Shown here in pieces: positions 58,252-62,836 of a DNA stretch of 64,000 bases. Source of the DNA: Salibacter halophilus. Its GTDB lineage: Bacteria > Bacteroidota > Bacteroidia > Flavobacteriales_G > Salibacteraceae. Position 1 is the stretch's first letter; every line of letters starts with the position of its first letter. The DNA lies in assembly GCF_008806325.1 (NCBI RefSeq), contig NZ_WACR01000003.1:248001-312000 (forward strand). The letters are read 5' to 3'. The notes beneath the pieces were generated by a model. The model ran no database searches. It saw only the letters and a program-made list of their open reading frames with translations, and was not told where the DNA came from. The translations under genes were made by a program, and so were the position numbers.

Positions 58252-58758
58252 TTTCGTCTCATCAGTCAGCGATATGCAGCGGATGCGCGTAGAAGCGAAT
58301 TGACAAACATTAGAATTAAGGACCTTGAACTTGACCGAAACCAACTGTTTGTGAGAGGAGGTAAAGGAAAAAAGGATAGGGTAACAATTTTGAGTGAAAG
58401 CTTGATCAATCAGCTTTTGATATATTTGGAGGAGTACAAGCCGAAGTATTGGCTTTTTGAAAATATGAAACGTGGCAAATACTCTGCTCAAAGTGTTTTA
58501 AACGTTGTTAAAAAGTCTGGGAAAATGGCAAAAATTTCACGTACTGTAACTCCACATATGCTGAGACATTCTTTTGCTACTCATTTAATGGATCATGGAG
58601 TGGACACTCGAAAAATCCAGGTAATGCTTGGACATAATTCGATTAAAACAACTGCAAGATACACCCACGTGAGCAATAATGATTTCCACAAAATAAAAAG
58701 TCCCCTGGACCAAATACAGACAAATAACAATTTAATTAACAATAACTTAAAACAGTAA
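58252..58758 (+). pseudogene. Tyrosine recombinase, N-terminally truncated (catalytic domain only)
   Basis: The open frame runs from after a stop at 58249-58251; the only usual start is TTG at 58300 (152 residues). Upstream codons still read YAADARRSELTNIRIKDL, equivalent to the region with the first catalytic Arg. Counting from 58300, the beta-hairpin Lys is in GGKGKKDR, then HMLRH (His86, Arg89), LGH (His112) and the nucleophile in ARYTH (Tyr121). The roughly 150-residue N-terminal DNA-clamp domain is missing, so this copy is probably inactive. Between the KGKKDR hairpin and HMLRH there is no room for the extra segment that marks integron IntI, so it is Xer-like. However, the end ...IKSPLDQI resembles the SPLD end of IntI and related plasmid integrases. 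It lies directly upstream of, and in the same direction as, the cassette array. Confidence 0.8.
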
Positions 58759-58809
58759 CGGATATAAGCGTATAAAGAACACTGTTTCTTTATATATACG
58801 TTGTGCTGC
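58757..58809 (+). other. attI-like or first attC-like hairpin site at the head of the array
   Basis: Overlaps the recombinase stop codon. AACG (58757-58760) and CGTT (58799-58802) close an imperfect hairpin: TATAAAGAA/TTCTTTATA (9 bp, 6-nt loop) continues into ATATA/TATAT with a small bulge. The junction G58800/T58801 is where the first cassette begins (GTTGTGCTGC). Confidence 0.55.
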
Positions 58810-58828
58810 ATTAGAATAAAACCCACGA

Positions 58829-60346
58829 ATGGACATTCTTAAAAAGCTAAAGAAAGAGACCGTATTTGGAAAATTGCTCGACTATGGACTATTTTCTGAA
58901 AAGCTTAATCCAATTTTTTCAAGTGAATCTTATGGCAAGTGGATTAGAAAAGAAGGTCTTAAAGTCTACAAAAAGCGAGAGTTTTCGACTGTATCCTTTC
59001 ACTTAACCAGAAATAACAATGCTCCCAGAGTAATTGAAATACCACACCCAATTAGTTATTACCGACTTTGCAATGAAATAAAGAAGAATTGGACTGAAAT
59101 CATCAAGAAGATTGGAGAAATAGATGACTACGCTGATAGAAGTATGGTAATTCCCAAACCCAATAATTTGAATAAGCGTTTGGTGTCTATGCTCTCGTAC
59201 AACAAAAACAAAGACGAAAAATTCCTCATTCTCGACAAGTCTTTTAAAGCAAAATATTACGTACACGCGGACATAGCTAACTGCTATCCCAGTATCTATT
59301 CCCACTCAGTTCCTTGGGCGCTTGTTGGTCACCAAGAAGCCAAGGATAATATGGATGATAAATCAAAATGGTATAATAAACTTGATTTCGCTATTAGGTC
59401 AATGCAAAGAAATGAGACTGTGGGAATTGCTATTGGTCCCGACACATCAAGTATAATAACTGAACTTATCCTAACTCGTGTCGACAAAGCACTTTCAGAT
59501 TATAAATATCTCCGATACATTGATGATTACAAGTGCTATTGTGATTCAAAGGAAGAAGCTGATACTTTTCTTAGAAAACTCAGTAAAGAATTAGAAAAGT
59601 ATCGATTAAGACTAAATCCCAAAAAGACGGAAATAATTGAACTACCTAAGCCACTTGACCAAGATTGGGTTCGAGAATTAAAAGCTTACACAAATAAGTT
59701 TCTGACTAGTAAGGAAGTCACTAAAAAAGACATCAATGTATTGAGCGAGTTCATTGACTTAGCTCTCAATCTCGCAAAATCTAATCCAGGTGACTCTCCA
59801 ATAAGATACGCTGTAAAAATACTATCTAAAAAGCTGTATAAGGACAATGATGTATTCGCTTTTGTGATAATGTACCTATCTAGACTGTGTTTCATCTTTC
59901 CATATTTTATTGATGTCTTTGACCTTCTTTTGGAAAAGAACACACCAAGTGACGAAATCTTAGAATTAGTTGAAAAGGAGATTAACTCTATTGCCAAAGA
60001 ACATATAAAGTACTCTCGTTCTGATGTGTCATTATGGAGCATCTATCTTGCTATTAAATATGATTTCCTTATTGATGACTTTGAAAAGTTTTCGGACTTT
60101 TTAATTACGGATAGAGACTGTTTACCAGTCCTAATGAGCTATGAGTACGCAAAAGCCAAAAAACATAAAACCAAGAAATTTTTCGATTTCATTGACACCT
60201 TAGTGACCGAAAAAATTGAAGAAGAATGGTGGATTTACATTTACACACTTTACTTCGATTCACATCGAAAAGCCATATTCAAGAAAATAGCCTTTAAGGA
60301 ATTCTATGAAGAAATGAGAAAAGGAAAAGTGAAATTTCTGAAATAA
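58829..60346 (+). CDS. Reverse transcriptase of UG/Abi (defence-associated) type
   Basis: 505 residues from ATG 58829. RT motifs: an early TRNNNAPRVIEIPHPISYYRLCNEI (57-81); motif A VHADIANCYPSIY with Asp148; motif B GIAIGPDTSSII near 200-211; motif C RYIDDYKCY with Asp232 and Asp233; then RLRLNPKKTEI near 255-265. The catalytic triad is intact. The last ~230 residues are helical, without the maturase X, D or endonuclease domains of group II introns. The RYIDDY and GPDTSS patterns and the helical C-terminus fit the UG/Abi class that includes DRT anti-phage proteins. Similarity to Drt3b-like sequences is my impression, and no Drt3a partner is present. The cassette has only 28 bp before the ATG and a few bases after the stop, so there is no space for a separate ncRNA unless the flanking repeats supply it. 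Confidence 0.85.
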   Translation: MDILKKLKKETVFGKLLDYGLFSEKLNPIFSSESYGKWIRKEGLKVYKKREFSTVSFHLTRNNNAPRVIEIPHPISYYRLCNEIKKNWTEIIKKIGEIDDYADRSMVIPKPNNLNKRLVSMLSYNKNKDEKFLILDKSFKAKYYVHADIANCYPSIYSHSVPWALVGHQEAKDNMDDKSKWYNKLDFAIRSMQRNETVGIAIGPDTSSIITELILTRVDKALSDYKYLRYIDDYKCYCDSKEEADTFLRKLSKELEKYRLRLNPKKTEIIELPKPLDQDWVRELKAYTNKFLTSKEVTKKDINVLSEFIDLALNLAKSNPGDSPIRYAVKILSKKLYKDNDVFAFVIMYLSRLCFIFPYFIDVFDLLLEKNTPSDEILELVEKEINSIAKEHIKYSRSDVSLWSIYLAIKYDFLIDDFEKFSDFLITDRDCLPVLMSYEYAKAKKHKTKKFFDFIDTLVTEKIEEEWWIYIYTLYFDSHRKAIFKKIAFKEFYEEMRKGKVKFLK

Positions 60347-60349
60347 AAA

Positions 60350-60490
60350 CGCAGCACAACAATGGGTATAAAACATAGGGCGGATAGTGGTTTCCGCAGG
60401 GTTTCGTCTTCGTAGCTACCTTTGTCACAGGCGGACAGGAAATAACTCCGTAGCACCCCACGTTTCTTAGCTGCAAAACGTTACCACACA
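60350..60490 (+). repeat. attC-like site A (after the RT cassette)
   Basis: Begins CGCAGCACAAC (60350-60360) and ends GCAAAACG^TTACCACAC. The interior shares with sites B and D the segments GGGCGGATAGTGGTTTCCGC, GCTACCTTTGTCACAGGCGG, GACAGGAAATAACTCCG and CCCCACGTTTCTTAGCTGC. GCAGCACAAC is the exact complement of the cassette start at 58800-58809. The left part (AATGGGTATAAAACATAGGG) diverges from the CCTAAGAAAACATGGGGC of the other sites. Confidence 0.75.
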
Positions 60491-60495
60491 TTAAA

Positions 60496-61290
60496 ATGAA
60501 AACGACACTTTCAACAATATGGATTCTGATTTTGATTCTTATTTCCTGTGAGAGTTATCTTAAAAAGGATTCTAAAGATCCAGACTTTCCTTATACATTA
60601 AGTCAGATATTAGAATACAAATTGATTGGTGAGTCAGTTGAGTTCAGTGCTATCTACCCAGACTCAAGCAGCAAAGTTTTAAACATGTTCTGTGACACCT
60701 TTGATGCAAACCCAGAACTGTATTTAGATAAATACTATACAAAAATCGATTCTACTACTTATCATTTTTTTCATGCGAGCCCAGTAGAGTTTCCATGGAT
60801 AGACGAAGCTGGCACTTTCTATTTCAATATTGACAACTTAGATAGTCTATTTCAATACAATGAAGAATTTAAGTATCCATCTGATTCTCTAACAGAGTTG
60901 ATAATTCAATCTGCAGCAGATGAGAATATGACAATCTCAGAATTATTAAAATTTCGTCAATTTGAGAGTTCTACTTTTTGGACTCCGAAACTATTTTTCG
61001 TCATTGGTTTTAATGAATGTGAAGATATGACGCTGCTCAAGATAAACGAAGCGATAATGAGAATTGACAATTCATTAGAAGAACTGAAAACAAAATATTT
61101 AGAATCAGGAATAAACCTTACACCAAGAATAATAATTAAAAAACGTGTGCCAACAGCACCTAAGAAAACATGGGGCGGACAGTGGTTTACGCAGGGTTCG
61201 TTCTTCGTGGCTACCTTTGTCACAGGCGGACAGGAAAGTACTCCGAAAAGCCCCACGTTTCTTAGCTGCAAAACGTTGTGCAGCCTTTAA
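60496..61290 (+). CDS. Hypothetical lipoprotein; frame runs through the attC-like repeat
   Basis: 264 residues. Lipoprotein signal MKTTLSTIWILILILISC (Cys18). The body (about 19-213) is acidic and unknown to me; SLTELIIQSAADENMTISELLKFRQFESSTFWTPKLFFVIGFNEC suggests a helical envelope protein. From about residue 215 (IIKKRVPTAPKKTWGGQWF) to the stop the frame is encoded by the cassette's terminal repeat. The stop codon, at 61288-61290, lies in the next cassette. Either the native stop was lost by a frameshift or the protein truly has a repeat-encoded tail of about 50 residues that would change when the cassette moves. It starts 15 bp after the cassette junction. Confidence 0.65.
   Translation: MKTTLSTIWILILILISCESYLKKDSKDPDFPYTLSQILEYKLIGESVEFSAIYPDSSSKVLNMFCDTFDANPELYLDKYYTKIDSTTYHFFHASPVEFPWIDEAGTFYFNIDNLDSLFQYNEEFKYPSDSLTELIIQSAADENMTISELLKFRQFESSTFWTPKLFFVIGFNECEDMTLLKINEAIMRIDNSLEELKTKYLESGINLTPRIIIKKRVPTAPKKTWGGQWFTQGSFFVATFVTGGQESTPKSPTFLSCKTLCSL
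61141..61285 (+). repeat. attC-like site B
   Basis: Starts AAACGTGTGCCAAC and ends GCAAAACG^TTGTGCAGC, with the cut expected between 61275 and 61276. The ends fold on each other: CAGCACCTAAGAAAACATGGGGC-type left arm (about 61153-61176) with the complement of GCCCCACGTTTCTTAGCTG (61250-61268), about 20 pairs with small bulges. It is nearly identical to site D in the interior. Confidence 0.78.
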
Positions 61291-61301
61291 ATAAAAATCA
61301 T

Positions 61302-61802
61302 ATGACAAAAATTAGACTCCTCTTCTTGGTGACCATTTTCATTTCAAGTTTTGCGTTCGGACAGTCAGACAACAAAAAGAAATTAAAAGCTGAACTAATC
61401 GGAACTTGGGAATTTGTGGAGCTAAGAGACGCGCAAGGCAATAAAGTGGACACGATTTTTCATAATGTTCCAGGACTCGACAAACAAGGTTGGGAAATTC
61501 CAAAAGGACCTTTGTTGACTTACAACTCTAACGGTACTTATTCAAAGCAGTTTACTCCGCAGAACACCGACACGGGAAATTGGTACTATGACAAGAAGAA
61601 AAAATCAATAATTCACAAGCTGTACTATTCAAAACCTTATGGAGCAGCAGCTCAGTACTTAATTGACAAAGGACACGCAAAACAGGATGAAAGTGGCAAC
61701 TACTACGAAGTGATTACAGACCAAGTTGTAAAACTCACGGACGACAAATTGATAATTCTTGAGCGTGAAGGTCGACAAAGAACATTTAAGAAAAAGAAAT
61801 AA
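61302..61802 (+). CDS. Secreted lipocalin-like protein
   Basis: 166 residues from ATG 61302; a TTG at 61278 in the same frame lies at the cassette junction and is unlikely. Signal peptide MTKIRLLFLVTIFISSFAFG. The body has the lipocalin-like layout: KAELIGTWEFVELRD with the G-x-W start, repeated strands, and LIILEREGRQRTFKKK at the end. It probably binds a small hydrophobic ligand or is structural; the function is unknown. It is the only gene of its cassette and starts 27 bp after the junction. Confidence 0.7.
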   Translation: MTKIRLLFLVTIFISSFAFGQSDNKKKLKAELIGTWEFVELRDAQGNKVDTIFHNVPGLDKQGWEIPKGPLLTYNSNGTYSKQFTPQNTDTGNWYYDKKKKSIIHKLYYSKPYGAAAQYLIDKGHAKQDESGNYYEVITDQVVKLTDDKLIILEREGRQRTFKKKK

Positions 61803-61803
61803 A

Positions 61804-61949
61804 AAACGCATCACAACAGCACCTAAGAAAACATGGGGCGGATAGTAGTAAACGCAAGGCACCTCTCTCCTATCAAGCTCTTTAACGAGCAGACAGGAAA
61901 AAACTCCGTAGCACCCCACGTTTCTTAGCTGCAAACCAGTGGGGCTAAT
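61804..61949 (+). repeat. attC-like site C
   Basis: Starts AAACGCATCACAAC, shares CAGCACCTAAGAAAACATGG with site B at the left and CCCCACGTTTCTTAGCTGC at the right. The centre differs (ACCTCTCTCCTATCAAGCTC replaces the TTCGTGGCTACC part). It ends GCAAACCAG^TGGGGCTA, a degenerate core. The cassette that begins there has a matching degenerate end, which supports real recombination history. Confidence 0.7.
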
Positions 61950-61954
61950 GTAAA

Positions 61955-62674
61955 ATGATCAGAATATTATTGACCATATCGATTCTTTTAGGACTAACAG
62001 ATTTTACCTTCTGTCAAGTCGATCAAGATAGTCTTAAATCAATGAAAACGATTTCTAATTTGATTAAGAATCAAAAAGAAACTGTTGAAAATGACTCTTT
62101 GAGATTTCTTTCGGGACATGTGTTTTCAAAATCAATAAACCACAAGTACATAAGACTATCAAATCGCTCAGGTACCTACATTCATGTTTATTCGGAACAA
62201 GACCAATATACAGAGCCAATTTTCACTGCACGTCTTCATTGGATGAACTTTATGAAAGATTCAATTTTTGACATCAATGGAGATAAAATAAGAGACTTAG
62301 CAATTCATTGGTACCCTTCTTCGGGGTGCTGTTTAGCAGACATATATTACTGCTGCATTTATGATGAAAACACTGACCATTTTTCAGAAAAATTGGAAAT
62401 ACTGAATCCAACATTCTATCCAGATCAATTTCAAACTTTCAGCATGACCTACGGACACCCAGGAGAAACCAAGTTTTATGAATTCAAATGGACAAATAAT
62501 ACATTGGATACATTGAAATCTTACGAATGGAATGACAGATCTCATAACCATATAATTCTGACAAACTTTAAAACAGGAACCCATACGGACTTGAAAAATA
62601 TCCCAAAAAACCTTCCAGAACTATATGGATTTGATTGGTTCATGATGAGATTAAATAATGAAGATGAGAAATAA
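61955..62674 (+). CDS. Secreted hypothetical protein
   Basis: 239 residues. Signal peptide MIRILLTISILLGLTDFTFC; the Cys at its end could also be a lipobox, but LTDFTFC is atypical. The mature part has FMKDSIFDINGDKIRDLAIHWYPSSGCCLADIYYCC, a DxNxDxxxD calcium-like loop followed by paired cysteines. The family is not recognised. It is the single gene of the fourth cassette, 15 bp from the junction. Confidence 0.65.
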   Translation: MIRILLTISILLGLTDFTFCQVDQDSLKSMKTISNLIKNQKETVENDSLRFLSGHVFSKSINHKYIRLSNRSGTYIHVYSEQDQYTEPIFTARLHWMNFMKDSIFDINGDKIRDLAIHWYPSSGCCLADIYYCCIYDENTDHFSEKLEILNPTFYPDQFQTFSMTYGHPGETKFYEFKWTNNTLDTLKSYEWNDRSHNHIILTNFKTGTHTDLKNIPKNLPELYGFDWFMMRLNNEDEK

Positions 62675-62676
62675 TA

Positions 62677-62822
62677 AACACTAGCTCCAACTAAACCTAA
62701 GAAAACATGGGGCGGACAGTGGTTTCCGCAGCGTTCGTTCTTCGTGGCTACCTTTGTCACGAGCGGACAGGAAATAACTCTGTAGCACCCCACGTTTCTT
62801 AGCTGCAAAACGTTCTATCGTT
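62677..62822 (+). repeat. attC-like site D (end of array)
   Basis: Starts AACACTAGCTCCAAC and ends GCAAAACG^TTCTATCG. The interior closely follows site B (ATGGGGCGGACAGTGGTTT, TTCGTGGCTACCTTTGTCAC, GAGCGGACAGGAAATAACTC, CCCCACGTTTCTTAGCTGC). The subtilase gene ends 15 bp beyond on the opposite strand. Confidence 0.78.
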
Positions 62823-62836
62823 GACTTAAACTAACC

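Follow-up and report, generated by a model that had tools for sequence, protein, structure and literature searches.

Can an array of gene cassettes belong to an integron when the recombinase beside it has no room for I2, the segment of the integron integrase IntI that has been described as required for the capture of cassettes and as absent from all other proteins, with no pre-I2 ancestor available (PMC7790495)? The question is raised by a stretch of 64,000 nucleotides (nt) from the genome of Salibacter halophilus, which comprises 3.12 Mb in 32 contigs (G000:C3:248001-312000; the whole stretch is called the window here). At window positions 58255-62814, a C-terminal fragment of a tyrosine recombinase is followed by an attI-like junction at 58800 and by four cassettes with attC-like sites of about 122 nt (AAC..GTT). 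The original prediction had left a choice between an integron lineage whose integrase is unusual and an independent cassette system using a Xer-like enzyme. The former is supported by full-length relatives with an attI-like junction and attC-like arrays downstream, and the latter is less apt, as the family groups with IntI and not with XerC, XerD or XerA. The window very probably holds what is left of a chromosomal integron, one of a lineage that is common in Bacteroidota and in which an IntI-clade integrase without I2 stands before attI and faces the array.

The recombinase family and its arrays

The window fragment retains the motifs RRSEL, GKGKKDR, HMLRHSF, LGHNS and RYTHV as well as the terminus IKSPLD, and it matches the Pfam model Phage_integrase at 1.5e-29. 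It aligns to residues 240-395 of a full-length relative of 407 amino acids (aa); hence, about 239 N-terminal residues are missing, in agreement with the truncation that had been proposed. The idea of a short complete enzyme was rejected, since the core-binding domain is absent here and present in relatives.

Homologues of the recombinase were found at E<=1e-25 in 35 of 60 relatives, mostly as full-length proteins. These measure about 350-490 aa (Flavobacteriales, Pontibacter, Rufibacter, Chryseobacterium) and have arrays directly downstream on the same strand; they share with the fragment both features first noted there, the lack of space for the extra segment of IntI and the orientation towards the cassettes. 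The interval from the Lys motif (GKGxKxR) to HxLRHSFAT is 58 residues in 89 of 114 members and 57-61 in 106 of them, compared with 100 residues in 19 of 20 IntI proteins (not measurable in the twentieth) and 60-66 in XerC/XerD. Hence, the I2 insertion is absent from the family. An AlphaFold model (predicted local distance difference test 81) has no extra helix at the I2 position and, among solved structures, comes closest to XerA and IntI4. With TIGR02249, whose cut-off is 265 bits, six full-length members fall short at 177-214 bits; they reach 210-222 bits with NF040815 (NCBI 'site-specific tyrosine recombinase/integron integrase'; cut-off 220). The C terminus SPLD of the family resembles that of IntI, and an N-terminal beta-alpha domain with weak similarity to DUF5710 lies ahead of the SAM-like domain. 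In L126, L153 and other Cytophagales loci, the recombinases are about 490 aa long and the DUF5710-like unit is apparently doubled.

In a tree whose IntI sequences came from the Bacteroidota phylum only, the family and IntI formed one clade (99/95) against XerC, XerD and XerA. The best tree nests IntI within the family (97/99 branch), but the alternative of a single clade for the family was not rejected (approximately unbiased test, p=0.24). The archaeal XerA/NF040815 model is the best or near-best one for the full-length proteins, whereas XerA itself lies outside the clade of the family and IntI. XerA is an enzyme of chromosome dimer resolution and is not known to act on cassettes.

When species genomes were scanned, 174 loci were obtained and the best 80 retained; they come from Pontibacter, Rufibacter, Adhaeribacter, Roseivirga, Flavobacteriales, Bacteroidales and a few Cloacimonadota/Delongbacteria. 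In many loci the contig ends shortly 3' of the recombinase gene, as expected from repeats. A cassette was recognized when its start and end were complementary and a hairpin followed up to GTT. With this test, 125 cassettes were found in 437 kb downstream of the recombinases, as compared with 19 in 688 kb upstream and six in shuffled downstream sequence, and 42 of the 55 loci having more than 1.5 kb downstream contained at least one. A score-based hairpin finder alone did not separate real sites from shuffles. Plain upstream/downstream or per-strand hairpin counts are uninformative because AAC..GTT hairpins are strand-symmetric, and the cassette-end test was used instead. The expected link between full-length recombinases and such sites was thereby found in many relatives. 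Cassette genes are co-directional with the integrase gene in 92 of 97 cases, and the median cassette is 595 bp long. Rufibacter sp. SYSU D00344 has 13 consecutive sites within 9 kb and R. ruber has five; the same arrangement is present on complete plasmids of Rufibacter tibetensis, Pontibacter kalidii and a Chryseobacterium. IS110-family insertions and a group II intron were observed within arrays (L240 12041-13042 and 14507-15823, L242 16295-17353, L244 11183-12538), one IS110-family insertion lying shortly after the AAC of a cassette end. Classical integrons too carry insertions and introns of these kinds.

The array in Salibacter halophilus

The features of the window array are as follows.

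58255-58758, + strand: truncated I2-less integron-type tyrosine recombinase, C-terminal catalytic domain, 167 aa plus stop
58768-58802, + strand: attI-like junction, inverted repeat ATAAAGAA..TTCTTTAT immediately 5' of GTT
58800-60479, + strand: cassette 1; GTTGTGCTGC at its start and GCAGCACAAC at its end are exact reverse complements
58829-60346, + strand: gene of cassette 1, DRT4 antiviral reverse transcriptase, 505 aa (PADLOC Drt4, 1e-155)
60358-60482, + strand: attC-like site 1, hybrid arms (left AATGGGTATAAAACATAGGG, right CCCCACGTTTCTTAGCTGC), AAC at 60358, GTT at 60480
60480-61274, + strand: cassette 2, gene for a lipoprotein-like protein from 60496
61152-61277, + strand: attC-like site 2, AAC at 61152, GTT at 61275; bottom-strand fold z -2.8
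61275-61936, + strand: cassette 3, gene at 61302-61802, 166 aa, secreted-like
61815-61939, + strand: attC-like site 3, AAC at 61815, crossover at 61937 with GTT changed to CAG; bottom-strand fold z -3.6
61937-62811, + strand: cassette 4, gene at 61955-62674, 239 aa, weak XAC2610-like domain
62689-62814, + strand: attC-like site 4, the final site of the array, AAC at 62689, GTT at 62812; bottom-strand fold z -2.2

The GTT that opens cassette 1 lies 41 nt past the recombinase stop. Four single-gene units in one direction, each ended by a related repeat of about 140 bp, had been predicted, and the repeats are indeed four direct copies of 139 nt with 75-86% identity to the reference copy; measured from AAC to GTT, the sites span 122-123 nt. 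Some details of the prediction needed correction. AAC at the left and CGTT at the right end were found generally, with the exception of the CAG of site 3. The second gene (60496-61290) has no stop ahead of its own attC, and its frame runs through the attC into cassette 3. Folding holds for sites 2-4, whose top strands give z values of only -0.5, -0.75 and -1.1, and fails for site 1, in which the left arm is mismatched to the right one and folding is no better than in shuffles (z -0.69). In cassettes 2 and 3, six of nine further end positions are paired; cassette 4 begins with CAG, not GTT. With CAG in place of GTT at 61937, cassettes 3 and 4 are perhaps fixed together. The protein of cassette 1 scores 413 bits with the NCBIfam Drt4 model, under the cut-off of 450.

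Hybrid sites with a AATGGGTATAAAACATAGGG-type left arm and a CCCCACGTTTCTTAGCTGC-type right arm also occur at L017:4421 and L018:11539, and intact partners of the AATGGGTATAAAACATAGGG left-arm type are present at L124 and L018:6440-6557. Recombination inside common loop sequence would yield such hybrids. A motif like GGACAGnAAnnnnCTnCGAAA is common across species in the loops of long-type attC sites (alignment A1, columns 100-135; window attC loops), outside the stem.

In the genome as a whole, the right-arm core was found in 10 copies at <=2 mismatches, compared with 0 for the reversed control pattern. The further copies lie on contigs C1 and C3 in several gene contexts, and the repeat is therefore not confined to the window. 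Cassettes with paired ends and attC were also found at C1:66485-68607 and from C1:186629. The latter array is an orphan, beginning at an apparent attI without a recombinase gene; the attI-like inverted repeat is at about 186585-186629 (L018, G000:C1), with cassettes following it and no recombinase gene upstream. Other recombinases matched by the window query are XerD, XerC and two distant ones, with <=40% identity over the matched part. Neither a second, full-length copy of the window-type recombinase nor IntI was found in searches of the S. halophilus genome; hence, its arrays are probably static unless an enzyme acts in trans. The window array, whose integrase has lost its N-terminal half, is likewise probably inactive in cis and static barring such an enzyme, in line with the frozen copy envisaged at the outset. 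In an empty-site comparison within the genus, the flanking gene matched over only 65 nt, in G002. If IntI were required, this and the other S. halophilus arrays would be classed as clusters of attC sites lacking integron integrases (CALIN), from which they differ in that the remnant of a cognate non-IntI integrase is present here and that relatives are complete.

Proposed recombination at attI and attC

The anatomy of the arrays, the structure of attI and attC, end complementarity, arm co-variation, bottom-strand bias, GTT borders and the absence of I2 were computed directly. Start and end of the same cassette match at 6.0 of 9 positions, compared with 3.1 of 9 in other pairings, and none of 20000 permutations was as high. 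In 83 attC sites selected without regard to folding, the arms pair at -9.2 kcal/mol with their own partner, compared with -5.9 kcal/mol when the arms are taken from different sites of one array (0/2000). Arm permutation was used here, since the stems of different types are not in register in alignment A1. The co-variation upholds the conserved fold that had been predicted. The bottom strand is more stable than the top strand in 110 of 124 sites (p=1e-19), which had been selected on the top strand; a better-folding bottom strand is a known mark of attC. Junctions of the attI type lie 24-154 nt past the recombinase stop, and at 24 of them the inverted repeat has a mean minimum free energy of -3.2, versus -1.0 when shuffled (0/500 shuffles).

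One Pontibacter virosus array contains two copies of a 688-bp cassette, 100% identical and with GTT borders. Three Pontibacter loci (L149, L151, L161) have the GTTGGCCGTG cassette in first position, at attI, and a fourth, L166, has it in second position. Conservation in Pontibacter extends over about 205 nt, counted from near the stop, up to GTT, and the sequences diverge beyond it. Such exact GTT borders in different contexts suggest that cassettes move as units between sites.

In the mechanism proposed, the integrase would bind the attI inverted repeat and the hairpin of the attC bottom strand and would cleave beside the conserved GTT, so that circular single-gene cassettes would be inserted at attI or at other attC sites, or excised (attI x attC, attC x attC). 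The position and conservation of the family recombinase point to it as the enzyme responsible, while arm co-variation and bottom-strand bias argue for the use of a single attC strand; the cleavage position is likewise putative. Several observations weigh against this proposal. The contact with attC is putative, and I2 was reported to be necessary for the activity of IntI1 (PMC7790495). No cassette was detected in 13 of the 55 loci with sufficient downstream sequence, and some family members may therefore serve another role. The cassette counts are threshold-dependent, because part of the test demands a hairpin, and the upstream control sequence includes real arrays.

The absence of I2, the segment that docks the extrahelical bases of folded attC in IntI, would also suit a reaction in which the same cassettes and sites are recombined as double-stranded attI and attC, in the manner of XerC/XerD or a phage integrase, the hairpin not being the substrate. 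The attI inverted repeat, as in ordinary Xer sites, fits with this, as does the finding that extrahelical bases have no fixed place in 46 sites: more bases are unpaired on L'' in 21 and on L' in 11, ten have symmetric mismatches only, and four, the tet(X2) attC among them, have none. It was nevertheless considered unlikely that the duplex alone is used, as the bottom-strand bias and the arm co-variation would then be purposeless. For an integrase using folded attC, the absence of fixed extrahelical bases may be relevant to working without I2.

A true IntI above cut-off was found in 84 of 297 genomes of the phylum, and a classical IntI from elsewhere could in principle move ordinary attC sites, with the adjoining recombinase as a bystander. 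This idea was dropped after the IntI search of phylum genomes and is very improbable: IntI is lacking in S. halophilus, just one genome of the same class matched IntI, arrays begin shortly past the family recombinase in many genomes, and cassettes are enriched downstream of it, not upstream. Less probable still are dispersed palindromic repeats (repetitive extragenic palindromes or miniature inverted-repeat transposable elements) or homologous recombination between repeats in place of site-specific recombination. The likeness of the window copies and the one site that is a hybrid of two repeat types would agree with repeats of this kind; however, cassette ends pair with their own start, GTT borders are exact despite differing attC sites, and the arms diverge widely yet keep their pairing.

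Resistance cassettes and relation to known integrons

When plasmids were searched with the Rufibacter enzyme, TnpF of the Acinetobacter tet(X3) plasmids was found. The start of tet(X), which confers resistance to tigecycline, is GTTATGTGCCATTTTTGAATG, and the tet(X2) copies end with CGGCACATAAC, followed by a full attC. At the TnpF attI (L239), tet(X3) has an attC that is cut short. After other attC-like sites, tet(X) is present in Bacteroides fragilis (L250) and Sphingobacterium (L251), and it also lies within an array of G531, adjoining two further cassettes, which we take from their sequence to be SMR-like (small multidrug resistance) and aminoglycoside-adenylyltransferase-like. In a tet(X4) plasmid, the attC is lost right at its start, at an ISCR2-side junction. 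In L239, L250, L251, L252, L253 and L254, tet(X) counts among the gene cassettes of the I2-less system; it was found as such in four contexts. In the literature, tet(X) units have been described as ISCR2 units or XerD neighbours (PMC7722449, PMC11194056). The tpnF-tet(X3)-ISCR2 units of Acinetobacter plasmids, hitherto described as an ISCR2 unit (PMC7722449), resemble the present system in that TnpF is a family member and tet(X3) extends from the attI GTT to the left part of attC; they differ in the shortened attC. In 2026, it was reported that Riemerella integrates the resistance gene aph(3')-IVb, flanked by 27 bp on its 5' side and 140 bp on its 3' side, in a homology-free manner; no mechanism was given, and attC-like folding of the 140 bp 3' of the gene was remarked (PMC13148043). 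This homology-free integration observed by others is counted in favour of an I2-less integron.

The system shares with IntI integrons an attI, attC sites with R/L boxes and a better-folding bottom strand, the GTT crossover, co-directional single-gene cassettes and a clade with IntI. It differs in the lack of I2 (58 vs 100 residues), scores below TIGR02249, the extra N-terminal DUF5710-like domain, an integrase that faces the array and extrahelical bases of attC at no fixed place. Reverse-oriented integrases are known in Spirochaetota integrons (PMC9668308). With IntegronFinder 2.0, one complete integron was found in Bacteroidetes proper, in Salinibacter (PMC9024848). Tools that define integrons by an IntI with I2 would file such arrays as CALIN, a possible reason for the near absence of complete integrons from Bacteroidota in that survey. 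No report linking I2-less integrases to attC arrays was found in open PubMed Central papers, a search that did not cover subscription papers and preprints. Integrons, including reverse-oriented ones, were thus already known, and the combination of an I2-less integrase with an attC array appears new within the open papers.

It is suggested, tentatively and with some doubt, that cassette capture via folded bottom-strand attC works without I2 and predates it, that the I2-less Bacteroidota enzymes are the grade that gave rise to IntI, and that a large natural cassette pool including tet(X) is moved by them. As a natural I2-less group with attC arrays exists, the origin of single-strand recombination becomes directly testable. 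The system also provides a possible explanation of how resistance genes spread in Bacteroidota: tet(X) lies at the TnpF attI in Acinetobacter plasmids and has exact cassette borders and an attC in Bacteroides, Sphingobacterium and G531.

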